Source of the DNA: Nitrososphaerota archaeon
GTDB lineage: Archaea; Thermoproteota; Nitrososphaeria; Nitrososphaerales; Nitrosopumilaceae
Assembly (NCBI GenBank): GCA_016872015.1
Contig: VHBK01000003.1
Coordinates: forward strand, 1-58,165
DNA length: 58,165 nucleotides
Direction of reading: 5' to 3'
Position 1 is the stretch's first letter; every line of letters begins with the position of its first letter. Both the position numbers and the translations under genes were made by a program. Shown here piece by piece: positions 1,659-48,997 of this stretch. The notes below the pieces were generated by a model. That model made no database searches and had not been told where the DNA came from. It saw nothing but the letters and a program-made list of their open reading frames with translations.

Positions 1659-1712
1659 GAAATTGCTCCCAGCAAATCACAAATTAAACAAATGATACAA
1701 TTTCCATCTCTG

Positions 1713-1730
1713 ATATTCAGCGGTGAGATT
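1713..1730. promoter_or_regulatory. Stress-island palindrome, degenerate copy (ATATTCAG-cg-GTGAGATT)
   Basis: Immediately upstream of TATATTTAAAA and CBS gene start 1773. Confidence 0.45.
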
Positions 1731-1772
1731 CTTGTATCTATATTTAAAAAACTGTAAGACAACCAAATACCA

Positions 1773-2624
1773 GTGAAGCTGAAAAACCCAAGCATAACCC
1801 AAGTAATCAGAAATGCAGTAACTGTAACTGATGGTATGACCCTGCTTGAGGCGCGCGAAGTTTTGCTAAAGCACCGAGTTGGGCGGCTACCAGTTTTGGA
1901 TAAAAACAAAGAACCAGTTGGCATCATAACGGAAAAAGACTTTGTTAGGGCAATCTACAAGTTTAGTGGAAAGCAAGTAAGCAAAATTCTGGTTCGCGAC
2001 TTTATGTCAAAAGACTTGATCACAATAACAAAAAATAACACAATTATTGATTGCGCCAGACTGATGCAGTCACACAAGATAAGCTCTGTTTTGGTCCTAG
2101 AAAAAAACAGATTGGCCGGAATCATAACAAAGACAGACCTTGCGTCCGTGTTTTTGACCCAGTCAGCAGAACCACTACATGTCTCAGACATAATGACCAG
2201 TGACGTCATAACAGTAATGCCTGCCGACTCGTTATTACTGGTGGAAAGCCTCCTAGTAAAACACAAAATCTCTAGAATAGTCGTACAGCGCAACAAAAAG
2301 CCAGTTGGAATCATAACAAATCGCGACTTTATTCCAGCAAAGATGCCCAAGTGGATCAGGGACTTTGCAGACCCAAAGGAAGTGGAAAAATACCAGCTAA
2401 ACCCAAATCCAGACGAATTCAGGATGAATCAATTATCCTACATTTTGTCATTTAGGGCAGAAGATATCATGACCCCAAACCCAGTCACAATAAATTCCGA
2501 CGACCAAGTCTCCTCTGCAGTATTAATCATGATACGAAATGGAATCAGCGGCTTGCCAGTTCTCAAAAAGTCGCTTTTGTGCGGAATAATAACAAAATCA
2601 GATATTGTAAAGGCTGTTGCCTAG
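1773..2624 (+). CDS. CBS-domain protein (two CBS pairs)
   Basis: Four CBS repeats (GRLPVLDKNKEPVGIITEKDFVRA, SGLPVLKKSLLCGIITKSDIVKA); GTG start. Confidence 0.9.
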   Translation: MKLKNPSITQVIRNAVTVTDGMTLLEAREVLLKHRVGRLPVLDKNKEPVGIITEKDFVRAIYKFSGKQVSKILVRDFMSKDLITITKNNTIIDCARLMQSHKISSVLVLEKNRLAGIITKTDLASVFLTQSAEPLHVSDIMTSDVITVMPADSLLLVESLLVKHKISRIVVQRNKKPVGIITNRDFIPAKMPKWIRDFADPKEVEKYQLNPNPDEFRMNQLSYILSFRAEDIMTPNPVTINSDDQVSSAVLIMIRNGISGLPVLKKSLLCGIITKSDIVKAVA

Positions 2625-3127
2625 TATACAGTTACTAGTCCCACTCGCCACGGGTGTATTGTGCAGAAATAATGATACACACCAGACTCTGTAAACTTGT
2701 ACGCAAAGCGCTCACCAGTCTTTAGGGCCTTGCTGTTAAAGAGTGACACGACATTTCCCTTTTCGTCCTGGCTTTGGACGGTATGATGAATGTTGTCATC
2801 GTTTATCCACACCACTGTTGTTCCGCTTGTTACCTGCAAGTTCAATGGAATGTAAAATCCCGCATTGCCTACCTCTGCGTTGCCATTTGGAATCACTACA
2901 TTTGCAACACCAGATGCAGGTTTGGCTGCAGGCTTTGCTTCTACTTGAATTATGTTTTTCTCTATTAGGAATTTAATAGCATTGAGAAATTCCGTGTCAG
3001 TTATCTTGCCTTCTGTCCAGAATTTTGCAGTGTTTTTGACCCAGTCGGGCACAGATTCAGCATGTGCAAGATTTGCGGCAAACAAAAATACTACAAAGAT
3101 AGAAAAGAATGCAATTTTATTATTCAA
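2621..3127 (-). CDS. Secreted cupredoxin (plastocyanin-like blue copper) protein
   Basis: Signal peptide; GTTVVWINDDNIHHTVQS...YHYFCTIHPWRVG copper ligand pattern. Confidence 0.9.
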   Translation of the reverse strand: MNNKIAFFSIFVVFLFAANLAHAESVPDWVKNTAKFWTEGKITDTEFLNAIKFLIEKNIIQVEAKPAAKPASGVANVVIPNGNAEVGNAGFYIPLNLQVTSGTTVVWINDDNIHHTVQSQDEKGNVVSLFNSKALKTGERFAYKFTESGVYHYFCTIHPWRVGLVTVY

Positions 3128-3168
3128 TAAATAAACATTGGAAAACTAGATTATAACATCAAAAGGTG

Positions 3169-3186
3169 AAGTTCAGCTTCGATAAT
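3169..3186. promoter_or_regulatory. Stress-island palindrome, degenerate copy (AAGTTCAG-ct-TCGATAAT)
   Basis: Upstream of cupredoxin promoter (minus strand). Confidence 0.4.
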
Positions 3187-3188
3187 TA

Positions 3189-3944
3189 CTATCCTTCAGA
3201 TGCAGATTTTCCGCCATCTATGTTCAGTATGGTTCCAGTAATCCACCTGGCATCATCTGACGCCAGAAATATTGCTGCCTTGGAGACATCTTCTGGATCA
3301 CCAATTTTGTTTAGTGGTTGGCGCTCTTCGAGTACTTTGCGTGCCTGTGGGTCTTCGAGGTACGGCTTGATCATGCCTGCATTTATGATTCCAAGATTTA
3401 GGCAATTGCATCGAATGTTTTTTCTTGCATATTCAACTGCAATGGATTTTGTAAACATGGAAACTGCCGCCTTGGTAGCTGAATATACCGCCAGATGAAC
3501 CCGTGGGATTGCACGCTCACTGGATATAGAGCCGATATTTATGATAGAGCCGCTCTTGTTGTCAAGCATTTTGGATATGGCTGCTTTAGTGATGTTCAGT
3601 GTTCCTAGGATGTTTGTGTTTATGAGATCGGAAATGTCCGAGTCCTTCATTTGATGAAAATGAATTGCGTCGTTTATTTTTGCGGCATTATTGACTAGGA
3701 TGTCGATTTTACCGTACTGGCCTACTACTTGGTCTATTGTGCTGAGAACCTGAGAATTGTTCATAATATCGCACGCCATCGATACGGCATTTCCATTAAT
3801 TGATGCGCGGGCCTTTTCCAGGGATTTTAGGTTGCGCCCAAGCATTACAACTGTAGCGCCTTCTTCTGCAAATCTTTTGGACATGTCTGCGCCAATGTCG
3901 CTTGATGCGCCCGTAATTATTGCGATTTTGTTTTTGAGTTTCAT
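3189..3944 (-). CDS. SDR-family short-chain dehydrogenase
   Basis: TGASSDIG, NNAA, YSATKAA motifs. Confidence 0.92.
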   Translation of the reverse strand: MKLKNKIAIITGASSDIGADMSKRFAEEGATVVMLGRNLKSLEKARASINGNAVSMACDIMNNSQVLSTIDQVVGQYGKIDILVNNAAKINDAIHFHQMKDSDISDLINTNILGTLNITKAAISKMLDNKSGSIINIGSISSERAIPRVHLAVYSATKAAVSMFTKSIAVEYARKNIRCNCLNLGIINAGMIKPYLEDPQARKVLEERQPLNKIGDPEDVSKAAIFLASDDARWITGTILNIDGGKSASEG

Positions 3945-3982
3945 GGTTTTATTTACACCAAATTATCTTAAATCAGTTGTGC

Positions 3983-4420
3983 TCACTTGACTAACAACAC
4001 TGGTACGGGGGATTTGTGCAAGACATAATTCGATACGCTTCCCAAAAAGACCTCCCTTACTGCGCTGCGTCCACGCGAGCCAATCACAATTAGATCAATT
4101 TTGTTGCTTTTGGCGTACTTTAGTATCATATAGCCAGGCGTGCCGTTTGCGATGATTTTGCTTGGATAAACATTGTTTTTTCTGCAGACTAGTTCTGCCT
4201 TTTTTAGCACGGATTCGGCAAATTTGCGCTCCTCGATTTGGCACTTGATAGGATCTATTGTCTGGACCTCTATGCTTGGAAAGACAGAAACCGAATACAT
4301 TATGGTAAGCTCGGCTCCAGACTTTTTTGCAAGAAATATTGCGGCATCTAGTGCCCTAAACGAGTTATCAGAGCCATCAAGCGGTACCAGGATTTTCTTT
4401 GGTGCAAACAACAATACCAT
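3983..4420 (-). CDS. Universal stress protein (UspA family)
   Basis: ILVPLDGSDNSFRAL...IVIGSRGRSAVREVFLGSVSNYVLHKSPVPVLLVK. Confidence 0.95.
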   Translation of the reverse strand: MVLLFAPKKILVPLDGSDNSFRALDAAIFLAKKSGAELTIMYSVSVFPSIEVQTIDPIKCQIEERKFAESVLKKAELVCRKNNVYPSKIIANGTPGYMILKYAKSNKIDLIVIGSRGRSAVREVFLGSVSNYVLHKSPVPVLLVK

Positions 4421-4452
4421 TCACAATCAAAATTACATAAATCTCAAGCCAG

Positions 4453-4483
4453 ATTATCAGGCATGAGTTTCAGTCCTGAGAAT
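4453..4483. promoter_or_regulatory. Two overlapping palindrome copies (ATTATCAG-gc-ATGAGTTT; AGTTTCAG-tc-CTGAGAAT)
   Basis: Between divergent USP (4420-) and phosphoribosyltransferase (4526+). Confidence 0.6.
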
Positions 4484-4525
4484 TAACCGACAAGGTCATA
4501 ATCATATCATGCAAATTACATTTCA

Positions 4526-4936
4526 TTGGACAAAGTATACGACTACAAAAACTGGAGCGAGATAGAATCTGCAACTGCAAAGCTAGTATCAAAGCTACAA
4601 GAAAAAAAATTCAAGACAATCTCCACTATCAGTAGGGGAGGACTAGTTCCGGCAAGGCTGGTAGCAGACAGGCTAGGAATAAAACAAATTCTAGTCGATG
4701 GCGAGTCGATACCAGAAGACTCGCTTTTTGTAGATGACATCTATGATTCCGGTGAGACATTTAGAAAAATAATACAAAGGGCGGAAAACCCAGACGAGTT
4801 GGTCTTTGCTACAATATACGCAAGAAGAAAAGACTATCCAAAGCAGCTAGTCTATGCAGAGCTGACGCGAGACACAGAATACATTGTGTATCCATGGGAC
4901 AGATTTGAGCACGGAATGCCCTACGAGGCACACTAA
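4526..4936 (+). CDS. Phosphoribosyltransferase-family protein
   Basis: STISRGGLVPARLVADRLG and SLFVDDIYDSGETF PRPP loop; TTG start. Confidence 0.88.
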   Translation: MDKVYDYKNWSEIESATAKLVSKLQEKKFKTISTISRGGLVPARLVADRLGIKQILVDGESIPEDSLFVDDIYDSGETFRKIIQRAENPDELVFATIYARRKDYPKQLVYAELTRDTEYIVYPWDRFEHGMPYEAH

Positions 4937-5371
4937 TTATTGCGGCTTCATTCGCAATAGTATTTGTTCAGTTATTCTTCGCATCTCCGAATCAGAGCCT
5001 GCGCTGCACAATCTAACAATGTCAGAGGTCGTGATCATTCCGACTAGAACATTGTTTTGAACAGCTGGCATTCGGTGAATCTTTCTTGTTTTCATAAGCT
5101 GTGCTGCGTCCCAGACAGAGTCGTCTGGATTTACTACAACCACCGGAGACGACATTACATCCTTGACGCTAGTTGTGTATGGTTTTCCCTTTGCAACTAC
5201 CCTCCTAGTCATGTCGCGCTCTGTTATTATTCCGGTGACAATTCCATTTTCCAGCACCACTATTGCGCCAATTGATGCGTCATCCATCATTTTTGCAGCA
5301 TCCTGAACAGTCATGGAAGAATCAATAGAGATGACGTTTTTTTTCATCACGTCTCGAACTAGTTCTGACAT
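4937..5371 (-). CDS. CBS-domain pair protein
   Basis: Two CBS repeats, 144 aa. Confidence 0.92.
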   Translation of the reverse strand: MSELVRDVMKKNVISIDSSMTVQDAAKMMDDASIGAIVVLENGIVTGIITERDMTRRVVAKGKPYTTSVKDVMSSPVVVVNPDDSVWDAAQLMKTRKIHRMPAVQNNVLVGMITTSDIVRLCSAGSDSEMRRITEQILLRMKPQ

Positions 5372-5412
5372 GAGCAGAAATTCCAGTCTGCTACTTAAAA
5401 GATCAGAACATG

Positions 5413-5430
5413 ATTATCAGAACTGAATTA
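5413..5430. promoter_or_regulatory. Stress-island palindrome (ATTATCAG-aa-CTGAATTA)
   Basis: Upstream of CBS gene 4937-5371 promoter (minus strand). Confidence 0.55.
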
Positions 5431-5491
5431 GCAAAATCAGGTTTGGTTTTTCTCTGATCTGTTAAATAGTAATGTTGCATAACCACTAAAG

Positions 5492-5863
5492 TTGGGAATA
5501 CTGGAAAATCTTTACGAGTTTGAGGCAAAAAAGGCAAAAGAATCCCTGAACATGCTCCTAATAGACAGGAGCAACGAATTCAAGGAGCTTGCAAAGGGGA
5601 TGGGAATTCCGACTACGTCACCAAGCTGGGAGCAGATAATTCTCAAGTTTTGTCTTGACTTTAATGAGTGCTTTCATTTTATAACAACGCCCGAAGGCCC
5701 AAACGATGCTGTTGAGGATGGCCACAACAAGATTCATCAATGCATGACATTGATTCGACAGATTGCTCGAGGAAAAACAAGCATGATAGAGATAACTCAT
5801 CTACAAAACGTGGCATACACTCTAGCAGAAGAATTCAAAACAATCTACAAAAGACTCAGCTAG
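5492..5863 (+). CDS. Conserved hypothetical protein
   Basis: Open 123-aa frame with TATA box (GTTAAATAG) upstream. Confidence 0.6.
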   Translation: MGILENLYEFEAKKAKESLNMLLIDRSNEFKELAKGMGIPTTSPSWEQIILKFCLDFNECFHFITTPEGPNDAVEDGHNKIHQCMTLIRQIARGKTSMIEITHLQNVAYTLAEEFKTIYKRLS

Positions 5864-6138
5864 GGCAAAACAGAGATCTGGTTTTCAATTAGATTACGGT
5901 ATGTCCAGTCAAGCAGTTCCTTTTTTGTGTGTGACCACTTGAGGTGCCCTGCATATTCTGTCTTGTTCTTGATTAGCCTTGGATACGCACCAAGAGGACA
6001 TTTCTCAAAATTATCCACCACATATGCAATTATTTTCTCTCTGTGTCCTGCAAGATGGATTAGCCATTGCTTTTTGTCTGCGTAAATTGGTCTTGGATTG
6101 TCACAAAAAATGCAAGACGCCGTATGATGCATGCTCAT
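5860..6138 (-). CDS. Hypothetical protein with Cys/His zinc-finger-like motifs
   Basis: SCIFCDN...HLAGHRE...HLKWSH pattern. Confidence 0.6.
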   Translation of the reverse strand: MSMHHTASCIFCDNPRPIYADKKQWLIHLAGHREKIIAYVVDNFEKCPLGAYPRLIKNKTEYAGHLKWSHTKKELLDWTYRNLIENQISVLP

Positions 6139-6147
6139 TGTATCATA

Positions 6148-6627
6148 TTACCATTGCAAGTCAGCTGCCCTTAGCGATTCGTTGTTTGCGTCAACCATAA
6201 CTGGCGAGTCTGCAAGCTCGTTTGGGTTCAGAGAAAAAACAAGTTTTGCAGAAAACTTGACAATGTTTGGGCGTCGGTTTTTTGCCTGCCTTAGGATTCT
6301 TTGCCTGTGCAATCTAGTCAGTCTGTCGATTATGGTCATGGTCATTTGCGATTTTATTTTTCTGTCAGTGACAAGAGCTGCTTTGCCCTTTAGCTGATAG
6401 CCAATCAGTTTTTTCTTGTCAAATATCGCTATGCTGCACCAGGAATTTTTTGATACATTTCGAAATGTTTTGTGTTGAAATATTTCAAGCCAGTAAATTG
6501 CACCATTTTGGTCAACATGAAATGCAGTTCTCGGAGAAACATTTGCAATTCCTCGATGAGATGTACCAACGACGAGAATTTTTTCTTTTGCAATTAACTG
6601 CTTTACTTTGTCAGGAATTGACGACAC
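6148..6627 (-). CDS. Pyridoxamine 5'-phosphate oxidase-like FMN-binding protein
   Basis: ILVVGTSHRGIANVSPRTAFHVDQNGAIYWLEIF... Confidence 0.7.
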   Translation of the reverse strand: MSSIPDKVKQLIAKEKILVVGTSHRGIANVSPRTAFHVDQNGAIYWLEIFQHKTFRNVSKNSWCSIAIFDKKKLIGYQLKGKAALVTDRKIKSQMTMTIIDRLTRLHRQRILRQAKNRRPNIVKFSAKLVFSLNPNELADSPVMVDANNESLRAADLQW

Positions 6628-6667
6628 GCTTGTGTTTGTGTAGTTTTTTTAATAAAATCAAGACTTG

Positions 6668-6685
6668 ATTATCAGACTTGATACC
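6668..6685. promoter_or_regulatory. Stress-island palindrome (ATTATCAG-ac-TTGATACC)
   Basis: Upstream of TTTTATTAAAAA promoter of 6148-6627 (minus strand). Confidence 0.55.
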
Positions 6686-7143
6686 TATTTTACAATCAAA
6701 ACCGAACACAGTGAGTGATTTGCAATTTTTGAAGAAATAGAACCCAAGAGGAACTTTACAACTGCACCTAGGCCTTTGCTGCCAATTACGATCAGGTCGG
6801 TCTTGGATTCCTTTGAATATTTGACAATTTCGCCTGCAACGTTTCCTTCCTTTGTCATTATTTTGGATTTGACTCCCTCCTGATCTGTTATTTTTTGCGC
6901 CCTTTCTATTACCTCCTTTGCATATTTGCGAAGAATCTCAGTATATTCAGAGCCTGCCAAAATATCGGATTTTCTGGTCTTGTCAATTACATGGATAAGG
7001 GTAAGCCCGGCGTCATACGACTTTGCCATGTCGCAGGCAGTTCGTATTGCCTTTTCAGAGTATTTTGAGCCGTCACAGCAAACAAGAATTTGTGAGAAAG
7101 GGCCTTTCATTTTTGCATCAACTAGTTCACACAAAAAATGCAT
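6685..7143 (-). CDS. Universal stress protein
   Basis: ILVCCDGSKYSEKAI...LIVIGSKGLGAVVKFLLGSISSKIANHSLCSVLIVK. Confidence 0.95.
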   Translation of the reverse strand: MHFLCELVDAKMKGPFSQILVCCDGSKYSEKAIRTACDMAKSYDAGLTLIHVIDKTRKSDILAGSEYTEILRKYAKEVIERAQKITDQEGVKSKIMTKEGNVAGEIVKYSKESKTDLIVIGSKGLGAVVKFLLGSISSKIANHSLCSVLIVK

Positions 7144-7329
7144 TTAACAATTTAGCAGATTTTTAAAACTGAAAAAGACGAGAATGCATACACGTCATAC
7201 CAAAGTATGTTCGTCTAGGTTATTACACCTTACATTCCCGTCCCGCGTGCAAGACGAATCTTGCACGATGTCAATACGTGAAAAAATAGTTAAACGGTCT
7301 GCACGATTACCAAGGCTGAAAATCGACCA

Positions 7330-7347
7330 GTTACTACCATTGATAAT
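7330..7347. promoter_or_regulatory. Half-degenerate palindrome (GTTACTAC-ca-TTGATAAT)
   Basis: Upstream of TTTAAATTAAAA and USP start 7389. Confidence 0.4.
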
Positions 7348-7388
7348 CTAAGCAAGATGTTTAAATTAAAATAGAAAAATCACTCTAC

Positions 7389-7814
7389 ATGGAAAATAAA
7401 ATTAAAAGAATTCTAGTACCAATGGACGGATCAAAGACCTCCTTTAGAGCGTTAGATGAGGCAATTGGGGTGGCTCGCGCATGTCATGCAACAATTTTAG
7501 GAGTTCATTCTGTTGCGTTTTTGCCAGCAGAGTTCATGCCAGCTGTGGCTCCTTACAAGATTTATCAAAAAAAGGAGGCAGGCAAATTCATGGAAAACGC
7601 CAAGCTCAGAGCTGCAAAGCACGGAATTTTGTTCTCTTATGCCATAACATATGGCAGCCCAGTTGAGCAGATTCTTGCAATTGCCAAAAAGAAAAAGGCA
7701 GATCTCATAGTAATTGGCGCAAGAGGAAAAGGTCGAGTGTCTGAGCTTTTCTTAGGAAGCGTCTCAAATGCAGTATTACACAAATCAAGCGTACCGGTTC
7801 TAATAGTAAAATAA
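7389..7814 (+). CDS. Universal stress protein
   Basis: ILVPMDGSKTSFRAL...IVIGARGKGRVSELFLGSVSNAVLHKSSVPVLIVK. Confidence 0.95.
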   Translation: MENKIKRILVPMDGSKTSFRALDEAIGVARACHATILGVHSVAFLPAEFMPAVAPYKIYQKKEAGKFMENAKLRAAKHGILFSYAITYGSPVEQILAIAKKKKADLIVIGARGKGRVSELFLGSVSNAVLHKSSVPVLIVK

Positions 7815-7816
7815 CC

Positions 7817-8278
7817 ATGTATCAGAAAATACTAGTCCCCTTTGATGGCTCCAAGTACTCTAAAAAATCACTTGACCAAGCAATAGAGATAGCCAAGGCC
7901 ATGAATGGGATTATCTATTTGTGCACCGTGGTAAGTGTAAGCCCGGTTGTTCCCCCAGGCTCACTTTTGGGACTAGTAAAGAGCGTATCCAAGGGAGACT
8001 TGCAAAAAATACTACTCAGTTCTGCAAAAAGAGAGGCAGAAAACATGGAGCGGAAGCAAATCGCATATTGTAAATCAAAAGGAATTGCAGCCCACTACAA
8101 AACCATTATTGATGGAAATATAGTAGAAGAAATTCTGCGAGTTGCCAAAAAGAAATCAGTTGATCTCATAGTTATTGGAAGTCAGGGCTTGCATGGAATT
8201 GGCAAGATCAAAACACTTGGAAGCGTCAGTAGAAAGGTTTCTGAGCTTGCGCACTGTCCTGTTTTGATTGTAAGATAA
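7817..8278 (+). CDS. Universal stress protein
   Basis: ILVPFDGSKYSKKSL...LIVIGSQGLHGIGKIKTLGSVSRKVSELAHCPVLIVR. Confidence 0.95.
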   Translation: MYQKILVPFDGSKYSKKSLDQAIEIAKAMNGIIYLCTVVSVSPVVPPGSLLGLVKSVSKGDLQKILLSSAKREAENMERKQIAYCKSKGIAAHYKTIIDGNIVEEILRVAKKKSVDLIVIGSQGLHGIGKIKTLGSVSRKVSELAHCPVLIVR

Positions 8279-8914
8279 TCATTTTCTGTATTTTTGCAAA
8301 ATGTTTTGGACTATTTGGTCCGGTATCTGATCAAACTTGCGATAAAACTGCCCTACTGAAGAGAACTCCATTGGTATTTCTATTGCGACAATCTGGATTC
8401 CAAATCTTTTGATTACCTCGTGCGTTGTGTATGGTATCACAGGCGTTACTAAAATTATCTGCCGCGTCTTTTTTTTCTCCAGCCACTTGAGTATAACAGA
8501 TACTGTGGCACCTGTTGCTATTCCATCATCAACTAGCAGTATTGTTTTGCCTTCCAAGGAATAGCTGGTGTGCCCCCTATAAGCCTGGATTTGCCTTGTG
8601 ACTTCGGCTTTCTTTTTGTTTATTTCCTCCTGAAATCTGGGATCGTCAGAGTATCGATCCCAATCGTGCCCATAGAATAACACGCCATCAAATGTAACAG
8701 AACCTATTGCATATTCCGGATAGTCCGGAGGGGTGATTTTTTTAGCAATTATCACATCAAGCGGCAATCCAAGAATTCTTGCTATTTCATCCCCAACAAT
8801 TACTCCGCCGCGGGGAATGGCAAGAACCATGCAGTCCTTGCCTTGTACTAGTGATTCGAGTTTTTCTGCTAACAGTTTTCCTGCGTGATGCCTGTCATGG
8901 ATGTGGATAGTCAA
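8279..8914 (-). CDS. Phosphoribosyltransferase (Rv0571c-like)
   Basis: DRHHAGKLLAEKL...AIPRGGVIVGDEIA...ILLVDDGIATGATV; TTG start at 8914 avoids overlap with the CBS gene. Confidence 0.85.
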   Translation of the reverse strand: MTIHIHDRHHAGKLLAEKLESLVQGKDCMVLAIPRGGVIVGDEIARILGLPLDVIIAKKITPPDYPEYAIGSVTFDGVLFYGHDWDRYSDDPRFQEEINKKKAEVTRQIQAYRGHTSYSLEGKTILLVDDGIATGATVSVILKWLEKKKTRQIILVTPVIPYTTHEVIKRFGIQIVAIEIPMEFSSVGQFYRKFDQIPDQIVQNILQKYRK

Positions 8915-8921
8915 TACAAGC

Positions 8922-9788
8922 CTAGGCCTCTTTTGCCAAAGCAGAGACAATGTCGGATTTTGTGACGATTCCTACCAGCCTTCCTGCTTTGACAACAGGG
9001 ATTCCGCTTATTCCGTACCTATACATGACAAGTGCTGCCAAAGAGATATCATCTGTTGGCTCTATTGTGACTGGGTTTTTGCTCATAATGTCTTCTGCCC
9101 TAAATGTCAGAGTGTAGTTTAGTTGGTTCACATTGAACTGGCTTGGGATATGACTATACCAGACATCTCTTAGCTCATTAGTATCGGTAAATGTTCCAAG
9201 TCTGTTTGGGATTCTTGCCGGAATAAAATCCCTATACGTTATGATTCCAACCAGCTTTTGATTTCTCATTACTGGAACGCGAGAGATTTTGTTGTTGATC
9301 AGAATGCTTTCGACTATGAACAAAGAGTCTCCTGTAGAGACAGTTACCACCTTGTCTGTCATGATTTGAGAGATTTTGATTTGTTCTGATTGCTGGATTA
9401 GAAAATTAAAGATAAGATCTGTCTTGGTAACGATTCCCTCCATGGATTCGTCATCTCTCAGTATGACAAGGGAGCTGATGTCGTATTGCTTCATTAGTTT
9501 GGCGCAATGATAGATAGAGTCACTTTTCTTTGCAGTGATAAGACCCTTTGACATCAAGTCTTGTACTCGAAGCGAGCCAAGAGGCTTGCTGTCCAACGGA
9601 TACAATGAGCGTATTATGTCTTTTTCAGTAATAATTGCAATTGGAGAGAATTTTTTATCAATTACTACAAGACGCCCAATTCTGTATTTTTGAATGACTT
9701 CTATTGCATTAAGAATACTGGTTTGCGGGGTGATTGTGATTGCCTTTTTTATCAGAGCACTTCGTAAGCCTGGGTTTGGCAGCTTCAT
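8922..9788 (-). CDS. CBS-domain protein (two CBS pairs), paralogue of 1773-2624
   Basis: Same architecture: LNPGLRSALIKKAITITPQTS...GISGIPVVKAGRLVGIVTKSDIVSALA. Confidence 0.92.
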   Translation of the reverse strand: MKLPNPGLRSALIKKAITITPQTSILNAIEVIQKYRIGRLVVIDKKFSPIAIITEKDIIRSLYPLDSKPLGSLRVQDLMSKGLITAKKSDSIYHCAKLMKQYDISSLVILRDDESMEGIVTKTDLIFNFLIQQSEQIKISQIMTDKVVTVSTGDSLFIVESILINNKISRVPVMRNQKLVGIITYRDFIPARIPNRLGTFTDTNELRDVWYSHIPSQFNVNQLNYTLTFRAEDIMSKNPVTIEPTDDISLAALVMYRYGISGIPVVKAGRLVGIVTKSDIVSALAKEA

Positions 9789-9797
9789 TATGTCTCG

Positions 9798-10220
9798 CTA
9801 TTTTACTATTAGAACCGGAATTGGGGACTTGTGCACAACATAGTGAGAAACACTGCCTAGGATGAACTCCTTTACGTTGCTTTGGCCGCGAGAGCCCATC
9901 ACAATTAGGTCTGCTTTTTTGTTTTTCGCAAAAGAGACCAGCTTGAATCCCTCGTTTCCGCACAGGATTTTCTCATAGAATAGTACGCCGTTTTTTGCGC
10001 ACCGCAGTTTTGCGTTCTCTAGAATCTTTTTGCCTGCGTCGGCAAGTGCCTTGCCAAGCTTTGACTTTGGTTTTGCCACATTAACTGAGAAAAGCGGAAT
10101 AACAAATACGCCAGTAATCACTCCCTGGCCTTGCCTTGCAAGATTGATTGCGTGATCTAGCGCCTTGGAGGATGAATTTGATCCATCCAGTGCTACCATG
10201 ATGTTTTTGAGTTCTGCCAA
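9798..10220 (-). CDS. Universal stress protein
   Basis: IMVALDGSNSSSKAL...LIVMGSRGQSNVKEFILGSVSHYVVHKSPIPVLIVK. Confidence 0.95.
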   Translation of the reverse strand: MAELKNIMVALDGSNSSSKALDHAINLARQGQGVITGVFVIPLFSVNVAKPKSKLGKALADAGKKILENAKLRCAKNGVLFYEKILCGNEGFKLVSFAKNKKADLIVMGSRGQSNVKEFILGSVSHYVVHKSPIPVLIVK

Positions 10221-10263
10221 GCTGTGTTATCTGGTATTTTATCTAAATTAAAAAGACATGTTG

Positions 10264-10294
10264 ATTATCCATTTTGATTTTCAGCGTTGATAAT
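10264..10294. promoter_or_regulatory. Two overlapping palindrome copies (ATTATCCA-tt-TTGATTTT; ATTTTCAG-cg-TTGATAAT)
   Basis: Between divergent USP (10220-) and CBS (10337+). Confidence 0.65.
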
Positions 10295-10336
10295 TCGCTT
10301 TTGATCTATTATAGATGAGAACTATGTTATGATGTA

Positions 10337-10795
10337 ATGGCGCAAACCCAGCCCACAATCCTAGTCAAGGATATCATGACAAAATCTCTCATAATGGTAG
10401 ATTCTTCTGCTACCGTAAATGAGGCTGCCAAAATGATGGAAAAAGCAAAGGTTGGCTCGGTAATAGTAACTGAGAAAAACACTCCAATCGGAATAATGAC
10501 AGACAGGGATTTTGCAATTACAATAGCTGCTCATGCATATCCAATTCACACCAAGGTAAAGCAGGTAATGTCGTCGCCTTTGATTCACATAAGATCAGAC
10601 GATGAAGTCTGGACTGCAGCTGATCTAATGTATTCAAGAAAGATACGAAGATTACCAGTACTAGACGAGGATGAGTTGCTTGGAATTGTCAGTGCATCGG
10701 ATTTTGTAAAATTGTACACTGTCTGCAACAGGGAAGACACAAGAAAGATGTACTTTCATGCACTAACCAAGATTTTTGATGAAAGTGTTAGCTGA
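10337..10795 (+). CDS. CBS-domain pair protein
   Basis: VKDIMTKSLIMVDSSATVNEAAKMM...IRRLPVLDEDELLGIVSASDFVKL. Confidence 0.93.
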   Translation: MAQTQPTILVKDIMTKSLIMVDSSATVNEAAKMMEKAKVGSVIVTEKNTPIGIMTDRDFAITIAAHAYPIHTKVKQVMSSPLIHIRSDDEVWTAADLMYSRKIRRLPVLDEDELLGIVSASDFVKLYTVCNREDTRKMYFHALTKIFDESVS

Positions 10796-11483
10796 TCAAA
10801 TGTGCAAGTAGGTTTCCTATCAAATACGCAGCAGTTGCGGCAATTCCACCCACAAGCAATGTCACAAGACCTGATCTTACTAGCGATTTTTTGACAATCT
10901 TGCCCTTGATTACACCAATTAGGAAAAACGCCACACTAGTAGATATTACAGAATAGGTAAAGCTTTCAGAATTCAGATGCATTCCAGCAAGATAAATGAA
11001 CAAAAACGGAATCAGTGGAATTATTCCAATTATTACAAAGCCAAACATGGTGCTTGCTGCAGTGTCAAGTGGCCTTCTGCCGTCTTCTATTAGGCCTAGC
11101 TCTTCTTTCATCATGGTATCAACCCAGACTTTTTTTCTTGCAGTGATTACCTTTACTATTTCCTCTAATAGTTCTGCTGTGAATCCCTTTTTTGCGTAAA
11201 TGTCGCGAATCTCCTGGCGTTCTGTTTCTTCCATGTTTTCTATTTCCCATTCTTCGCGCGCTCGCTCTTTTTGGATGTATTCTGCTCGCGCCTTTGACGC
11301 CTGATAATTGCCGACTGCCATTGAAAATCCGTCTGCAAACAAGTTAGCAAAGCCCAAAATCACCACAATCATTGGAGACAATGACGCACCTATTGCGCCT
11401 GCCACAATAGCAAATGTAGTTACCGAGCCATCAAAGGAGCCATAAATAAAATCCTCAAAGTGCCACTTCATGGTATAATACAA
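10788..11483 (-). CDS. VIT1/CCC1-family (DUF125) metal transporter-like membrane protein
   Basis: FIYGSFDGSVTTFAIVAGAIGASLSP...GFANLFADGFSMAVGNYQASKA. Confidence 0.9.
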   Translation of the reverse strand: MYYTMKWHFEDFIYGSFDGSVTTFAIVAGAIGASLSPMIVVILGFANLFADGFSMAVGNYQASKARAEYIQKERAREEWEIENMEETERQEIRDIYAKKGFTAELLEEIVKVITARKKVWVDTMMKEELGLIEDGRRPLDTAASTMFGFVIIGIIPLIPFLFIYLAGMHLNSESFTYSVISTSVAFFLIGVIKGKIVKKSLVRSGLVTLLVGGIAATAAYLIGNLLAHLIS

Positions 11484-11533
11484 CCAAAATCAAGTTAATA
11501 AGAAATAGAAAAAAATCAAAAATGATAATTGAG

Positions 11534-12341
11534 CTAGAATAATTTTCTAATGTTTCCTAGCTCTTCTTTGATGGATTCTATTGTAGAATCGATGTCTTCT
11601 GCAGATTGGCCTGTGTTAATTGCGTGTCTGAGATCAAGTCTTAACATTAGCTCTACTTTGCCCATTAGAGATGGGTCTTTGTCTGCAACTGCGCCTTCAA
11701 TGTACTCGTAATTCTCCAAGTATGCCTCTGTTGCTGTTGCTAGTGCACCAGTCGAGTCTCCTTCGTGGTATTTTGTGGAAACTTGGTCAAGTAGATCTTC
11801 GATATTATCAATTGTCTTGAGAACATCAGCCTGTTTTGTGATTGGTGTTCCCATCATCATTGGACTCATCATCATGCCAGAGCCCATCATCCCTTGGTTC
11901 ATCATGCCTTGTCCCATTCCTGGATTCATCATGTTTGGTCCCATCATGCCAGTCATGTTCATCATTTGCATCATTTGTTGCATGTGTTGTGGGTCTCGTA
12001 GCATCATTTGATGCATTTGGTTTACTGTTGCCGGATCCATCATCATTTGGCCCATCATGTTTTGCATGAGTAGGATCATTCATCATCATTTGATGCATTT
12101 GCTGCATGTGCTCGGGATTGTTCATCATGGTATCATGCATCTTTTGCATTGCCTGAGGATCTACCATCATTTGGTTCATCCACTCATTCATGAGTTGAGG
12201 ATCTGACATCATTTGCGACATCATTTGTTGGCGAGTCAGCGTTACACTGCTAGGACTGGACTGAAATACTGCATATCCCACTCCTAGTCCTGCAAAGAAA
12301 ACTCCGACTGCTATACCAACCAATATTGCTTGGCTTGCCAT
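11534..12341 (-). pseudogene. Met-rich secreted/membrane-anchored protein split by a frameshift near 12065-12068 (putative copper binding)
   Basis: N-terminal frame (MASQAILVGIAVGVFF...NPEHMQQMHQMMMNDPTH) and C-terminal frame (QNMMGQMMMDPATVNQMHQMMLRDPQHMQQMM...) carry the same Met-rich repeat and meet at CATG. Confidence 0.75.
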
Positions 12342-12382
12342 GAAGCGAAAAATCTCATTTATCTATATACAATCAGTACACA

Positions 12383-12400
12383 ATTCCCAGTTCTGATAAT
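12383..12400. promoter_or_regulatory. Stress-island palindrome (ATTCCCAG-tt-CTGATAAT)
   Basis: Upstream of Met-rich gene promoter (minus strand). Confidence 0.6.
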
Positions 12401-12408
12401 TCCTTCAA

Positions 12409-12426
12409 ATTATCAGCTTTGAGATT
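12409..12426. promoter_or_regulatory. Stress-island palindrome (ATTATCAG-ct-TTGAGATT)
   Basis: Upstream of thermosome promoter. Confidence 0.6.
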
Positions 12427-12467
12427 TGTCTTTATTCCATAAATACGATTTTTTTCATTTTGATGTC

Positions 12468-14105
12468 ATGTCCTCAATTCAGACGACATCTGAGGGAATT
12501 CCAGTAATAGTCCTAAAGGAGGGCTCCAAGCAATCCCGTGGAAAGGACGCCCAAAAAAACAACATAAATGCAGCCAAGCTGATAGCAGAGATCATCGCAT
12601 CCAGTCTTGGCCCCAGAGGCATGGACAAAATGCTAGTTGATTCCATTGGCGATATCACCATTACAAATGATGGAGCTACCATCCTCAAGGAAATTGATGT
12701 CCAGCATCCTGCGGCAAAAATGATGGTCGAGGTTGCAAAAGCAACTGATTCCGAAGTAGGCGACGGCACAACTTCTGCAGTAGTAATTGCAGGCGCTCTT
12801 CTAGAAAAGGCAGAAGGACTAATTGACAATGACATTCATCCAGTAATCATTGCAGACGGCTACAAAAAGGCGGCAAAAAAGGCAATCTCGTTTTTGGGTG
12901 AGATTGCAAAAAAAGTAGACATTTCTGACAAGCAGACATTTGAAAAAGTTGCTCGAACCTCTATGCTCACAAAGCTAGTTGCAGTGGAAGCAGCTGATCT
13001 GGCAAAGATAGTAGTAGATGCAGTCATATCAATAATGGAAGAAAAGGACGGGGGCTACAGGGCAAACATTTCAAACGTTAAAGTAGAAAAAAAGACAGGC
13101 GGCTCTATTTCTGATAGCCAGCTGATCAACGGCATAGTATTGGACAAAGAAATAGTAAACAACAACATGCCAAAGAAAATCCAAGATGCAAAAATTGCCC
13201 TGGTTTCTGCTCCACTTGAAATTGAGAAAACAGAGTTTGAGGCAAAAATCAACATCTCGACTCCAAACCAAATAAAGTCATTCATGGAAGAAGAAAATCA
13301 AATTCTCAAAGAAATGGTAGAAAAAATAAAGAACACCGGCGCAAACGTTGTGCTTTGCCAAAAGGGAATAGATGACATAGTCCAGCATTATTTGGCAAAG
13401 GCAGGAATTTTGGCAGTGCGGCGAATCAAGGAATCCGACATGGCAAAGCTTGCAAAAGCAACTGGGGCAAGAATTGTCGGAAACGTAAATGACCTAACAG
13501 AAAAAGACCTAGGAGCTGCACAAAACGTAGAGGAAAAGCAGATAGAAGATGACAACTGGACATATGTAGAGGGCTGCAAAAATCCAAAGGCAGTCACATT
13601 TTTGGTCCGCGGAGGCTCGCAACGAGTAGTAGATGAGGTAGAGCGGGCAATCCATGATGCACTGATGGTCGTAAAGGACGTAATAGAGCGACCATATTTT
13701 GTGCCTGGAGGAGGTTCACCTGAGGCATATTTGGCGACAAAGCTTCGAGTCTGGGCCCAGTCGCTTTCTGGACGGGAGCAGCTTGCAGTGGAGAAATTTG
13801 CCGAAGCCCTAGAGTCAATTCCAATTTCACTTGCACGAAATTCCGGCATGAACCCAATTGACGCAATAACGCAGCTTAGGGCAAAGCAGAGTGCCGGAGA
13901 AAAATACACCGGAGTGGACGCAGTAAACGGAATAATTGGCGACATTGAAAAAATCGACGTCCTAGAGCCAATCAAGGTAAAAGAGCAAGTAATCAAATCC
14001 GCAACAGAAACTGCAAACATGATTCTGCGAATAGACAATGTGGTAGCAGTGTCCAGGGCCTCACCCCCACCACAGATGCCAGGCCAGCCGCCTGGAATGT
14101 ACTAG
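12468..14105 (+). CDS. Thermosome subunit (group II chaperonin)
   Basis: LGPRGMDKMLVDSIGDITITNDGATILKEIDVQHPAAKM...VGDGTTSAVV. Confidence 0.98.
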   Translation: MSSIQTTSEGIPVIVLKEGSKQSRGKDAQKNNINAAKLIAEIIASSLGPRGMDKMLVDSIGDITITNDGATILKEIDVQHPAAKMMVEVAKATDSEVGDGTTSAVVIAGALLEKAEGLIDNDIHPVIIADGYKKAAKKAISFLGEIAKKVDISDKQTFEKVARTSMLTKLVAVEAADLAKIVVDAVISIMEEKDGGYRANISNVKVEKKTGGSISDSQLINGIVLDKEIVNNNMPKKIQDAKIALVSAPLEIEKTEFEAKINISTPNQIKSFMEEENQILKEMVEKIKNTGANVVLCQKGIDDIVQHYLAKAGILAVRRIKESDMAKLAKATGARIVGNVNDLTEKDLGAAQNVEEKQIEDDNWTYVEGCKNPKAVTFLVRGGSQRVVDEVERAIHDALMVVKDVIERPYFVPGGGSPEAYLATKLRVWAQSLSGREQLAVEKFAEALESIPISLARNSGMNPIDAITQLRAKQSAGEKYTGVDAVNGIIGDIEKIDVLEPIKVKEQVIKSATETANMILRIDNVVAVSRASPPPQMPGQPPGMY

Positions 14106-14921
14106 TTGAAAAAGATCATAATCATAAAGGCAAACGGGCAGAGGGCAGAATTTGATCCAAACAAGGTCATAACAACATGCATCAGAGCAGGCGCAGATCC
14201 GTCGATTGCAAAGCAAATTGCAAGACAGGTCCACTCTAAAGTTCGCTATGGAATGACTACAAAGGAGATCTACAAAATCGTGCTGCGGTTCTTATCAGAG
14301 AATGCAACGCCGGCCATAAAACAAAGATACCGCCTAAAGGAATCTATAATGAGGCTTGGCCCTGCAGGCTTTTCCTTTGAATACTATGTGGGGCAAATCT
14401 TGCGACACTATGGATACAAGGTTCTATCAGTTGGCTCAAAAATCCAAGGAAGATGCGTCATACATGAAGTAGATCTATTCCTAGAGTCAAGCGATGAGAA
14501 AAAATGGCTAGTAGAATGCAAGTATCATAATTTTCCTGGTAGATATACTGGCCTCAAAGAATCACTGTACACCCACGCACGATTTTTGGACCTTGCAGAC
14601 AGGTTTGATTGTGAGATGCTAGTGTGCAATACCAAGGTCTCGCCAGAGGCAATAACATATGCAACATGCATAGGCCAAAAGCTTCTCTCGTGGAGGTTTC
14701 CATCACAGATGGGCCTAGAGAAAATGATTGAGGAAAAAAAGCTCTATCCAATTACTATTTTGGGCCCAAGCAAAAGGGAGCTGGAAATACTATCAAAAAG
14801 CAACATGATGATAGCAAAGGACCTGCTCGATATTGACATTTACGAGTTTGCGCAAAAAACAAGGCTTTCAATCAAAAGACTTGTTGCCATGCAGCGCCTA
14901 ACAAACCAGATAATCAGCTAA
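14106..14921 (+). CDS. ATP-cone domain fused to Mrr/PD-(D/E)XK nuclease-like domain
   Basis: N-terminal ATP-cone-like IIIIKANGQRAEFDPNKVITTCIRAGAD; C-terminal HEVDLFLESSDEKKWLVECKYH nuclease signature; TTG start. Confidence 0.8.
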   Translation: MKKIIIIKANGQRAEFDPNKVITTCIRAGADPSIAKQIARQVHSKVRYGMTTKEIYKIVLRFLSENATPAIKQRYRLKESIMRLGPAGFSFEYYVGQILRHYGYKVLSVGSKIQGRCVIHEVDLFLESSDEKKWLVECKYHNFPGRYTGLKESLYTHARFLDLADRFDCEMLVCNTKVSPEAITYATCIGQKLLSWRFPSQMGLEKMIEEKKLYPITILGPSKRELEILSKSNMMIAKDLLDIDIYEFAQKTRLSIKRLVAMQRLTNQIIS

Positions 14922-15835
14922 TTTAGAAATTTTTCTACTTGTGCGATATTGTTTTGGATGATACCTGCTGATTTGTGCAATTGCTCTCTTTCTTGTGGCG
15001 TAATAGAAATTTCATGGATTTGCGCAATTCCGTCTTTGGTTATTGTGACTGGAACTCCCATGCACAAGTCTTTGGTATCATACTGCCCATCAAGCGATAC
15101 CGATGCGGCAATTTCTAACGGCTGATTTTTGATTATTCCATTTATGACATCAAACGTGTTTTTTGCAATTCCGTAAACGGAGCTTCCTTTGTAGTCTCGC
15201 AGTGATTTCCAATAAGACCTAACAGATGTAGTTATTCGCAACTTTTGTTGCTCATCTAAAATATCATCCACTAGAGTGCTACCAAATTTGGCGCAAGAAA
15301 AAATTGGAACCATGGAATCATCGTGCTCGCCCATTACTAGTGCATCTTTTATTTGGGATTGGTCTGTGCCAAACTCTTTTGCCAATAAATATCGGAATCT
15401 TGCAGAGTCCAGGCTTGATGCTACGCCAAGAACATTTTTTGAGGCTAGATTTGCTCTTTTTTGCACTAGATACGTCATCACATCCACTGGATTTGTAATG
15501 ACTAGTACCTTTGATGACGGTGCAAATTCCGAGATCTTGTACGCTATTTCGGTAATCATTTTTGCCTGATCAAGCATTACATCGCTTCGTGTTATGATGT
15601 GAGATGCAACACTTGCCGCAATGACACAGACATTGGAATTTTTTATTTTGGAATAATCCGATGTGCCAGAAACAGAGATTGTGGAATTTTTTGGTATTGC
15701 ATTTGTGATGTCTAGGGCTTCGCCTATTGCCTTTTTCTCATCTCGATTTACTAGTACAAGATCATCTAGGCCGGAAGAGCCGCACAAAAAGGCAATCGTA
15801 GAGCCAACTTTACCTGCGCCAATTATTGATATCAT
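14918..15835 (-). CDS. mdh: Malate/lactate dehydrogenase family
   Basis: MISIIGAGKVGSTIAFLCG...VITNPVDVMTYL...MGEHDDSMVP. Confidence 0.93.
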   Translation of the reverse strand: MISIIGAGKVGSTIAFLCGSSGLDDLVLVNRDEKKAIGEALDITNAIPKNSTISVSGTSDYSKIKNSNVCVIAASVASHIITRSDVMLDQAKMITEIAYKISEFAPSSKVLVITNPVDVMTYLVQKRANLASKNVLGVASSLDSARFRYLLAKEFGTDQSQIKDALVMGEHDDSMVPIFSCAKFGSTLVDDILDEQQKLRITTSVRSYWKSLRDYKGSSVYGIAKNTFDVINGIIKNQPLEIAASVSLDGQYDTKDLCMGVPVTITKDGIAQIHEISITPQEREQLHKSAGIIQNNIAQVEKFLN

Positions 15836-15836
15836 T

Positions 15837-16292
15837 TTATTCTGTTAGGCCCACTCGCTTTATCTGAATTGTGCCTAGGAGTTGCTTTGTCTCTGCAATG
15901 TCATAATACTGGTAGACTACTTCCTTTTTGCTTTGTATTATTATAGTGTCTTCTTGGCCTGGCTCGAGCAGCTTTGTCTTGACTCCAATTGGATCAACAT
16001 AAAACAAATGCGGCTTTGTGTCGGCATTTTTCACAGTCAAAATATATGCAAATTCCGTTCGAGATATCAGATCTGGGTTTGTGCCAGAGTTTCCTATTGT
16101 ACCAACAACTACTGTTTTGCCATCAATGTTTCTAAATTCCAAGGTTTGCTTGATCTCTTCTGGAAAGAAAATGTTGACGTGCCGTACGTTTCCCTGGCCT
16201 GCAAATAAAACAATACCACCAAATGCCGCAATTGCAACAACCAATGCGATTACGACAAACCTTTTTTCGCTGCTCACAAGGTATGATTTCAA
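15837..16292 (-). CDS. Membrane-anchored hypothetical protein
   Basis: N-terminal TM helix then beta-rich domain, 151 aa. Confidence 0.65.
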   Translation of the reverse strand: MKSYLVSSEKRFVVIALVVAIAAFGGIVLFAGQGNVRHVNIFFPEEIKQTLEFRNIDGKTVVVGTIGNSGTNPDLISRTEFAYILTVKNADTKPHLFYVDPIGVKTKLLEPGQEDTIIIQSKKEVVYQYYDIAETKQLLGTIQIKRVGLTE

Positions 16293-16356
16293 ATTATGCT
16301 ATTTGTAATGCAAATATAATTTTCAAAAATGAGATTCAAAAATAAAAAAAAGGAAA

Positions 16357-16626
16357 CTAGTTTCCTTTGTTTGTGCTTTTTCGAGAGCCTGTGCCCCTGT
16401 TTGTGACTCGCACCATTCCTTCTGTTGATGGTCGTGCCCGTGGTGCAGGAAGGTCTTTGAGTGCTACAGTTTTGTTGCCCCTACCCAGAGAAAGCGTAAC
16501 ATTCTTGCCAACTTTTGCTAGCTTTTCTTGTTGGGCTTTTCTGTATTCGTCTCCTGCCCAATTTTGGGAGGAAATATCTGCCTCTCGCTTGCCGGTTCCG
16601 CGTCCTGTAACTTTGGTTACTTTCAT
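16357..16626 (-). CDS. Small basic hypothetical protein (89 aa)
   Basis: MKVTKVTGRGTGKREADISSQNW..., TATA TCTAAATAAT upstream. Confidence 0.65.
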   Translation of the reverse strand: MKVTKVTGRGTGKREADISSQNWAGDEYRKAQQEKLAKVGKNVTLSLGRGNKTVALKDLPAPRARPSTEGMVRVTNRGTGSRKSTNKGN

Positions 16627-16786
16627 GGTGTGATTTAGCTTGCAAATTATTTAGAAACTAGGTACACACTGCATTGCAAAGCAAGAATGGAAGGAAGGCG
16701 AAGAAAGCAATTGGGGAAACAGGAATCAGCTACTCCTCCCTTCCAATGGCATAGTTTGGCGTTTTTTCTATTTAATGAGGGTCTTG

Positions 16787-16804
16787 ATTTTCAGCCCTGA
16801 TAAT
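16787..16804. promoter_or_regulatory. Best palindrome copy (ATTTTCAG-cc-CTGATAAT)
   Basis: Upstream of APC permease (16850+) and of a minus-strand TATA at ~16767-16776. Confidence 0.65.
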
Positions 16805-16849: not shown

Positions 16850-18136
16850 ATGGCCGAGCTAAAGCGCCACTTGGGACTATTCCACACCACAATGTATGGT
16901 GTTGGCCTAATTTTGGGTGCAGGAATCTATGCGTTAATTGGAGATGCGGCAGGCCAGGCAGGAAACTCTGTTTGGATTTCATTTGTTCTTGCCGCAATTT
17001 CTGCCGTCTTTACTGGATTAAGCTATGCAGAATTGTCATCAATGTACCCAAAGGCAGCTGCGGAATACTTGTTTGTAAAAAATGCATTTAAGAACAATTT
17101 TGTTGCATTTTTGGTCGGCTGGTTGACACTCTTTGTTGCAGTAATATCGGCTGCGGCAATTGCACTTGGGTTTGGCGGATACTTTACGCAATTATTCCAA
17201 ATTCCGATTGTGCTGGCAGCCGTTTTAATTATTGCAATATTGACATTTGTGAATTATTTTGGAATTCGCGAGTCCTCATCGATGAATATTGTATTTACCA
17301 TAATAGAAGCGGCCGGTCTTGCCATTGTGATTTGGGCAGGCATGACCATCACTGGGGTAGAGATTGATTATTTTGAAATGCCGCATGGCTTTTCAGGCAT
17401 ATTTTCTGCTTTTACACTCGTGTTTTTTGCCTATATAGGATTTGAAAATATAGCAAACATTGCAGAGGAGATAAAAAATCCAAGAAAAGTTCTGCCTCGG
17501 GCAATAATTTTGGCAGTATCCATTACCGCCATTGTGTACATTTTGGTCTCTATTTCTGCAGTGCGAGTATTAGATTGGCAGGCGCTAGATGCATCTTTTG
17601 CGCCTCTGTCCGATGTGATAAAAACAGCATTGGGTCAAGAATGGGGTTTTGGGATTTTGATCATAGCTCTTTTTGCCACAACAAACACGGTTCTGATAAT
17701 GCTTGTATCAGGGTCTAGAATTTTGTACGGCGTATCAGTGGACAAGGCACTGCCCGCAATATTTTCTGCAATTCACCAAAAAAGAAAGACACCGTGGATT
17801 GCAGTGATTTTGATTGGTTCACTGTCTGTTGGATTTGTCTTTGTTGGAGACATTGGAACTGTGGCAAACATTTCTGTCTTTGCTATAATCATGGTCTTTG
17901 TGTTGGTGAATCTGTCGTTAATTTGGTTGCGCTACAAGGAGCCAAATGCGGATCGACAATTCAAGTCGCCAGGAAATATTGGCAAGTTTCCCATTTTGGC
18001 CGCATTGGGAATTATAACACCAATTCTTGGAATTATTCAGTTTGATTCGTTTGTTATTTTGATGGGCCTAGGAGTAGTAGCTAGTGGTGCATTATTCTAT
18101 TTCATCTACAACAAAATAAAAAAAGAAAAGATCTGA
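16850..18136 (+). CDS. APC-family amino acid permease
   Basis: GVGLILGAGIYALIGDAAGQAG...multiple TM helices. Confidence 0.95.
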   Translation: MAELKRHLGLFHTTMYGVGLILGAGIYALIGDAAGQAGNSVWISFVLAAISAVFTGLSYAELSSMYPKAAAEYLFVKNAFKNNFVAFLVGWLTLFVAVISAAAIALGFGGYFTQLFQIPIVLAAVLIIAILTFVNYFGIRESSSMNIVFTIIEAAGLAIVIWAGMTITGVEIDYFEMPHGFSGIFSAFTLVFFAYIGFENIANIAEEIKNPRKVLPRAIILAVSITAIVYILVSISAVRVLDWQALDASFAPLSDVIKTALGQEWGFGILIIALFATTNTVLIMLVSGSRILYGVSVDKALPAIFSAIHQKRKTPWIAVILIGSLSVGFVFVGDIGTVANISVFAIIMVFVLVNLSLIWLRYKEPNADRQFKSPGNIGKFPILAALGIITPILGIIQFDSFVILMGLGVVASGALFYFIYNKIKKEKI

Positions 18137-48008: not shown

Positions 48009-48423
48009 CTTTTTGGTTTAGAGATTCTATTCTGCCTTTGTACTTTTCCTTGTAGGTTGCCCTGCATGTGGTACAGCAGAAAAATCGCTCAAAATCTGCT
48101 ATCTTTAGCGGCTGTGGCTTGCCAGAAATTGGACCATTACACAAATCACAGGTCATGTTAAGTATCATGTTTTTTGTAATTTTGGCAGGCCTAGGCTTTG
48201 TCTTAATGTCTAGCTTCTTTTCGGTTTTGGGCTCCAACAATCCATGATCCAGTACAGGTGACACTGACTTTATCAGGCCGACGTTAACTAGTCGCTCGTA
48301 TCTTGCCTGAACTGTTGGTGTGCTGACCTTGATTTCGCGAGATATTTGTCTAAATGACTTTCTACCATCCTGCATCAGTGATTGTATTATTGCAACATCA
48401 ATATCGTCTAGCTGGTATGGCAT
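47998..48423 (-). CDS. Lrp/AsnC-type HTH fused to TRASH metal-binding domain
   Basis: LDDIDVAIIQSLMQDGRKSFRQISREIKVSTPTVQARYERL...CDLCNGPISG...FFCCTTCRATYKEKY. Confidence 0.9.
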   Translation of the reverse strand: MPYQLDDIDVAIIQSLMQDGRKSFRQISREIKVSTPTVQARYERLVNVGLIKSVSPVLDHGLLEPKTEKKLDIKTKPRPAKITKNMILNMTCDLCNGPISGKPQPLKIADFERFFCCTTCRATYKEKYKGRIESLNQKARQ

Positions 48424-48927: not shown

Positions 48928-48997
48928 TGTAAGTAATTGTCAGATATGATATACAACGTTTCCTGACATTATCAAAAATTAGAATGACTAAATCAGG

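Follow-up and report, generated by a model that had tools for sequence, protein, structure and literature searches.

The window analysed here, a stretch of 58,165 nucleotides (contig VHBK01000003.1, assembly GCA_016872015.1) from a 1.3-Mb archaeal genome placed in the genus Candidatus Nitrosotenuis on the strength of named relatives such as N. chungbukensis MY2, carries in its first 17 kb a series of copies of an 18-bp palindrome with the half-sites ATTATCAG-N2-CTGATAAT, whose centres lie some 50 bp ahead of the start codons of genes for universal stress proteins (USP), CBS-domain proteins and others. We consider this palindrome, with a probability of about 0.8, to be the site of a dimeric DNA-binding protein which, according to an upstream-activator model, would control a regulon in the Nitrosopumilaceae and, more sparsely, in certain further families of the same order. 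The site, its position, its conservation and its targets can be read directly in the genomes and the regulon interpretation is supported; activation, the signal and the factor are what we infer below.

Each copy was scored by its matches out of the 16 half-site bases. The best in the window, at 16787, scores 15/16, followed by 10277 and 12383 (14/16), 4466, 6668 and 12409 (13/16), 4453 and 5413 (12/16), and 1713, 3169, 7330 and 10264 (11/16). All these copies had been listed with their positions, and the three best also with their scores, in a first-pass annotation of the same DNA and were recovered by rescoring, together with two that were absent from that list, 7306 (13/16) and 1700 (12/16, 13 bp from 1713). 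Allowing up to three mismatches, the window contains seven matches; shuffling the whole window yields 0.44 on average and never more than 2. In the intergenic DNA of the 1-17 kb region (1321 bases) there are 10 sites of at least 12/16 and six of at least 13/16, for which dinucleotide shuffles give means of 0.21 (maximum 2) and 0.01, respectively; no site reaches either threshold in the region's 16.8 kb of coding DNA. The intergenic DNA from 17 to 58 kb holds three sites of at least 12/16, all scoring exactly 12, against 0.46 expected, and none of at least 13/16, in agreement with the earlier impression that no convincing copy, apart from weak variants, lies past about 17 kb. The four 11/16 copies are weak by themselves and are backed by the orthologous positions in relatives: the equivalent of 3169 scores 13/16 in L046, that of 7330 lies 51-54 bp from the start in L047 and L050-L056, with scores of 13-14/16, and the ATTnTC half-site of 10264 is retained in 93-100% of 42 orthologous promoters.

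A matrix of 105 sites, somewhat flattering in that the set was picked by score, gives the consensus ATTnTCA-N4-TGAnAAT, with the gene-proximal half being the stronger. In most cases 49-54 bp separate the site centre from the start codon of its target gene, and a TATA-like block is found 21-27 bp from the centre, on the gene side, which bears out the earlier placing of the sites just upstream of the TATA box and the B recognition element (BRE); in the matrix, the BRE columns are low in information and the TATA is variable. A reading as a 13-bp tandem repeat (units TGATTATCAGNNC) was rejected, and the 18-bp palindrome is preferred as the better unit because, in the pooled matrix, the outer TGA letters are far less conserved than the inner TCA/TGA.

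The arrangement of the sites follows that of the genes, whose CBS, USP, phosphoribosyltransferase-like, PNPOx-like, thermosome and permease assignments come from Pfam. Where divergent genes are about 114 bp apart, two overlapping palindromes occur 13 bp from each other, so that each gene gets its own palindrome at about -50. This is found between the CBS-domain genes 510-1658 (reverse strand) and 1773-2624 (forward), where the centres of the doublet 1700/1713 (1700..1730) lie 50 bp from one start codon and 51 bp from the other, and between the USP gene 9798-10220 (reverse) and the CBS gene 10337-10795 (forward), where the doublet 10264/10277 (10264..10294) lies 52 and 51 bp from the respective starts. 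In the gap of about 104 bp between the divergent USP gene 3983-4420 (reverse) and phosphoribosyltransferase-like gene 4526-4936 (forward), the single palindrome 4466, with its centre at 54 and 51 bp from the two starts, serves both genes; the overlapping second copy 4453 is nonetheless present (4453..4483). Furthermore, the pair 12383/12409 serves two divergent genes across a 128-bp gap, with 12383..12400 at -50 of a Met-rich protein gene (start 12341) and 12409..12426 at -52 of an extra thermosome (TCP-1/cpn60) gene (12470-14105, forward; start about 12470). The remaining copies are 3169..3186, at -50 of a cupredoxin gene (2621-3127), 5413..5430, at -50 of the CBS gene 4937-5371 (reverse), 6668..6685, at -49 of the gene for a PNPOx-like flavin mononucleotide (FMN) protein (6148-6627, reverse), the pair 7306 (-74) and 7330 (-50), spanning 7306..7347 upstream of the USP gene 7389-7814 (forward), and 16787..16804, at -54 of an APC-type amino acid permease gene (16850-18136, forward). 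Further USP genes lie at 6685-7143 (reverse) and 7817-8278 (forward).

In the relatives, both the site and its distance from the gene are retained at orthologous promoters. The gene cluster is syntenic throughout the genus and the palindrome stands at orthologous positions in most genomes; in other genera the cluster order differs and the site is still found at about -45 to -54 of CBS, USP and APC genes. In particular, the doublet 1700/1713 is kept in L046-L048, with one site only in L049 and L050, the 5413 position is held, with scores of 11-13, in all genus genomes having the region, and the 6668 site is retained at 48-50 bp in nine relatives, one of them scoring 10/16. The 42 orthologous promoters examined for the CBS gene 10337-10795, all from the family and mostly from Nitrosotenuis, Nitrosopumilus and Nitrosarchaeum, were aligned with the motif as the anchor. 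All of them retain TGATTTTCA-N4-TG, then AnAnT, and the upstream ATTnTC half-site, with most half-site letters 93-100% conserved and the N4 spacer and the linker variable. The promoters of paralogous CBS genes have no palindrome, nor have the housekeeping thermosomes that were checked; the extra thermosome located in the cluster carries it, in another genus too. This extra thermosome is a paralog separate from the housekeeping thermosomes of the relatives, to which it is 60-65% identical, and shares 77% identity with one in another genus (G005). As a separate observation, G070, of the same genus (1.2 Mb, 98% complete), has no more than two CBS matches, a single exact site and thermosome matches solely of the housekeeping type, and apparently has lost the whole cluster together with the regulon.

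Genome-wide occurrence was estimated by pattern searches, counting the exact pattern ATTNTCANNNNTGANAAT in 41 genomes with the reversed pattern as a control. The counts were 142 and 3, respectively, an excess of about 50-fold (89 vs 1 in the genus, 30 vs 0 in the remaining family and 23 vs 2 in other families of the order), in line with the enrichment over shuffles. Of the two refuting outcomes named in the first-pass annotation, no excess over shuffled sequence and no conservation in sister species, each was put to the test in some form and neither was borne out. Among the 124 exact sites in the fetched stretches, 105 fall between genes, in DNA that accounts for 13.5% of the bases, and 66 have a start codon at 46-56 bp (47 if only the longest-open-reading-frame start is used), with distances peaking at 48-52 bp. 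Outside the window cluster, targets recognised by the pattern only, several of which were named by eye from sequence, include genes for PII, Amt, phosphoribosyl pyrophosphate (PRPP) synthetase with a divergent nitroreductase, S-adenosylmethionine (SAM) synthetase, a BFN nuclease, USP and CBS proteins and a thermosome in another family; Hsp20 genes have weaker copies at -49 to -51. The genome of the window itself has near-exact copies at PII (50 bp), SLC13-type transporter (52 bp) and CBS-like (49 bp) genes. Two single sites are worth recording: in L121 (G116) an exact palindrome at 1501 lies between a gene for a small TRASH-like protein (49 bp) and a divergent copper P-type ATPase-like gene (61 bp), which may point to a metal-related arm of the regulon, and in another family of the order (L114:6607, G124) an exact palindrome lies 52 bp upstream of a gene judged by eye to be amoC-like, a single case which could be chance.

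It could be argued that AT-rich intergenic DNA produced the repeats by chance, or that CBS and USP genes were duplicated together with their promoters, since many targets come from these two paralogous families and the sites are AT-rich. These data refute such a reading, which we regard as extremely improbable: composition is excluded by the shuffles and the reversed pattern, unrelated genes for thermosome, PII, PRPP synthetase, SAM synthetase, APC permease and PNPOx carry the site at about -50, many CBS and thermosome paralogs are without it, and the N4 spacer varies while the half-sites stay. Two points weigh against the regulon as we read it: some orthologous positions have no recognisable site, for example at the cupredoxin gene in L048 and L049, and a second peak of start-codon distances, at 59-85 bp, is only partly explained by divergent neighbours. 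On balance, the cis-regulatory element and its regulon are real and well conserved, and apparently undescribed, as no description of the motif was found in openly licensed papers.

As to the mechanism, a dimeric factor would bind about 50 bp upstream of the start of genes that are presumably mostly leaderless, directly upstream of the BRE/TATA, and would most likely activate transcription by recruiting TFB or TBP; divergent genes would share one site when the gap is about 104 bp and use two overlapping sites when it is about 114 bp. Activation is proposed because the site lies immediately upstream of the BRE/TATA, a location that, as already remarked in the first-pass annotation, is right for an activator. 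TFB-like genes adjoin PII genes in the extended cluster (L096:12671-13579 in G034 and L098:7495-8394 in G082), and a dedicated TFB might recognise the core promoters of the regulon. Alternatively, a repressor or dual regulator could use the site as its operator and release the genes under stress. Many archaeal regulators are indeed repressors, and Phr, the nearest fold match of the candidate regulator R1 described below, represses the heat-shock regulon of Pyrococcus furiosus (PMC5937170); repressor sites, however, usually overlap the BRE/TATA or the start site, whereas our site has its centre at a constant -50, clear of the core promoter, and we regard this alternative as unlikely.

The upstream-activator model can be compared with known systems. 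Ptr2 is an activator with its site upstream of the BRE. The site of EarA is likewise upstream of the BRE (PMC5512572), and published archaeal activators bind upstream of the BRE/TATA (PMC5937170). The placing of EarA and Ptr2-type sites is the same as that of our palindrome, but their sequences and targets differ. A close parallel is TFB-RF1 (PF1088) of Pyrococcus/Thermococcus, which activates in vitro and binds a palindrome just upstream of the BRE/TATA, with a footprint from -47 to -70 relative to the translation start, in two known operons, at a conserved distance and with conservation of the site in related species (PMC5937170). Our element resembles it in being a palindrome upstream of the BRE/TATA at a fixed distance, conserved in relatives, and the -50 position fits that mode. 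The TFB-RF1 motif, TCTGAANTTCAGA (13 nt), differs from ATTATCAG-N2-CTGATAAT and is not matched by our site matrix; moreover, two operons are controlled there by a known factor, compared with more than 10 kinds of target and a candidate factor here. With Phr there is a likeness in the control of heat-shock genes, but its repressor operator lies in or downstream of the core promoter, unlike a site centred at -50, upstream of the TATA. The Fur box has the arrangement GATAAT-GATAAT-N-ATTATC, and the operator of NrpR in methanogens, which has PII and Amt among its targets, is GGTA-N6-TACC. The hexamers GATAAT and ATTATC are common to the Fur box and our element, but their order and spacing are opposite, our matrix running from ATTnTC outward to GAnAAT, and the targets found here are not iron-uptake genes; with NrpR the nitrogen genes PII and Amt are shared, but the operator is unlike our palindrome. 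Two traits of archaeal upstream activator sites, a palindrome immediately upstream of the BRE/TATA at a fixed distance and conservation at orthologous promoters, are found here; the element looks to be of the same kind, with a size, breadth and target set that look new for ammonia-oxidizing archaea.

The nature of the targets, USP, CBS, extra thermosome, Met-rich and cupredoxin genes in the window and PII, Amt, PRPP synthetase, Hsp20 and others in relatives, suggests a response to energy, nitrogen or protein stress. Of the "stress regulon" originally named in the first-pass annotation, the regulon part stood, while "stress" proved too narrow a label: the site is also carried by the genes for PII, Amt, PRPP synthetase, SAM synthetase and an APC permease.

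Candidates for the factor were looked for among small DNA-binding proteins near the cluster in relatives. We favour, at somewhat less than even odds, R1, a winged-helix protein of about 110 amino acids (for example L096:3168-3500, reverse strand, with R1b at L096:5689-6003, reverse), as the most likely factor. Its orthologs occur near the cluster in many genomes, and its AlphaFold2 (AF2) model (mean predicted local distance difference test, pLDDT, 83) has a winged-helix fold with Phr, of the ArsR type, as the best PDB match (template-modelling score, TM, 0.67; 16% identity), many winged-helix proteins matching almost as well. Exact sites per Mb are 3.66 in genomes with R1 and 0.66 in those without (p = 2.6e-7, an optimistic value, as the genomes are related and the threshold was set after seeing the data), and the rank correlation is 0.76 outside the family. 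R1-family genes of G125 and a paralog in G007 carry the palindrome in their own promoter, which favours R1 binding the palindrome and being controlled via a second element, the TGCA-repeat TGCAnTGCAnTGCA. This conserved, palindrome-like element stands at about -40 to -58 of R1-family genes and, in the fetched DNA, is found almost only in front of them (L047:52-83, L097:14812-14843 and the R1 promoters in L357-L374); it is probably the operator for R1 or for a neighbouring ribbon-helix-helix (RHH) protein. Several facts speak against R1: the co-occurrence test ignores phylogeny, and any cluster gene would correlate; the palindrome is missing from the promoters of most R1 orthologs, which have the TGCA-repeat element instead; and the window's own assembly yielded no ortholog of R1 or RHH. 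In G034, R1 and RHH are located about 1-2.5 kb past the equivalent of the left edge of the window, where its contig begins. Autoregulation of R1 via the palindrome was set aside, being limited to G125 and the G007 paralog and not seen in the main R1 orthologs.

Either R1 binds the palindrome and is controlled via TGCA, or it may be that R1 binds TGCA and RHH the palindrome. In the latter case the regulon would be the same and its factor would be the CopG-like RHH protein of about 195 amino acids (for example L096:1607-2194, reverse strand) beside R1, with R1 binding only the TGCA of its own promoter; the near restriction of TGCA to R1-family promoters is what such autoregulation would predict. 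RHH orthologs, 59-99% identical, are present in nearly all motif-rich family members, and the RHH gene seems to be part of the regulon because, in G034 and G005, it follows a CBS gene carrying a site at -48/-49. No close ortholog was found, however, in G007, a 79%-complete genome with six exact sites, nor outside the family; sites persist there, and the rank correlation is 0.41, not significant. The inner TCA-N4-TGA of the 18-bp palindrome would suit a winged-helix dimer, and the AF2 model of RHH is poor (pLDDT 64). RHH as the factor is possible but doubtful, and R1 is preferred. HTH_45 winged-helix proteins were also considered and rejected: two each in G082 and G076 have an upstream site, and the HTH_45 genes of the window's genome and of G034 do not.

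Gene regulation is little known in ammonia-oxidizing archaea, though they are major nitrifiers in soils as well as in the sea. With more than 10 kinds of target and family-wide conservation, a defined cis-element provides a concrete handle, predicting genes that respond together, and connects the USP and CBS proteins, whose large sets are unexplained, with PII, Amt and chaperones; the two candidate regulators can be tested as purified proteins, without genetics. More speculatively, and with rather low odds, this could be a general energy- and nitrogen-status regulon of ammonia-oxidizing archaea, in which a Phr-like R1 activator would turn on adenylate-sensing CBS and USP proteins, PII, Amt, chaperones and PRPP synthesis together and would itself be controlled via the TGCA-repeat by the RHH protein encoded beside it. 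If true, it would be an archaeal counterpart to the bacterial general stress response.

Some further features of the window can be mentioned. Among the weak variants, one scoring 12/16 (48968..48985) lies at -49 of a Dps-like gene (48451-48927) and another, at 48936, at -17. After the Dps-like gene in this region (47998-48927) comes a gene (47998-48423) whose product joins an Lrp-type winged helix to a TRASH-like metal domain rich in cysteine. This regulator was rejected as the factor because the clusterless G070, with its one exact site, has an 89%-identical copy, and multi-site genomes such as G111, G005 and G003 are without an ortholog. Finally, the segment 5860-6138 encodes a small conserved protein with C2H2-zinc-finger-like Cys/His spacing and no Pfam match, whose gene apparently forms an operon with the PNPOx gene.

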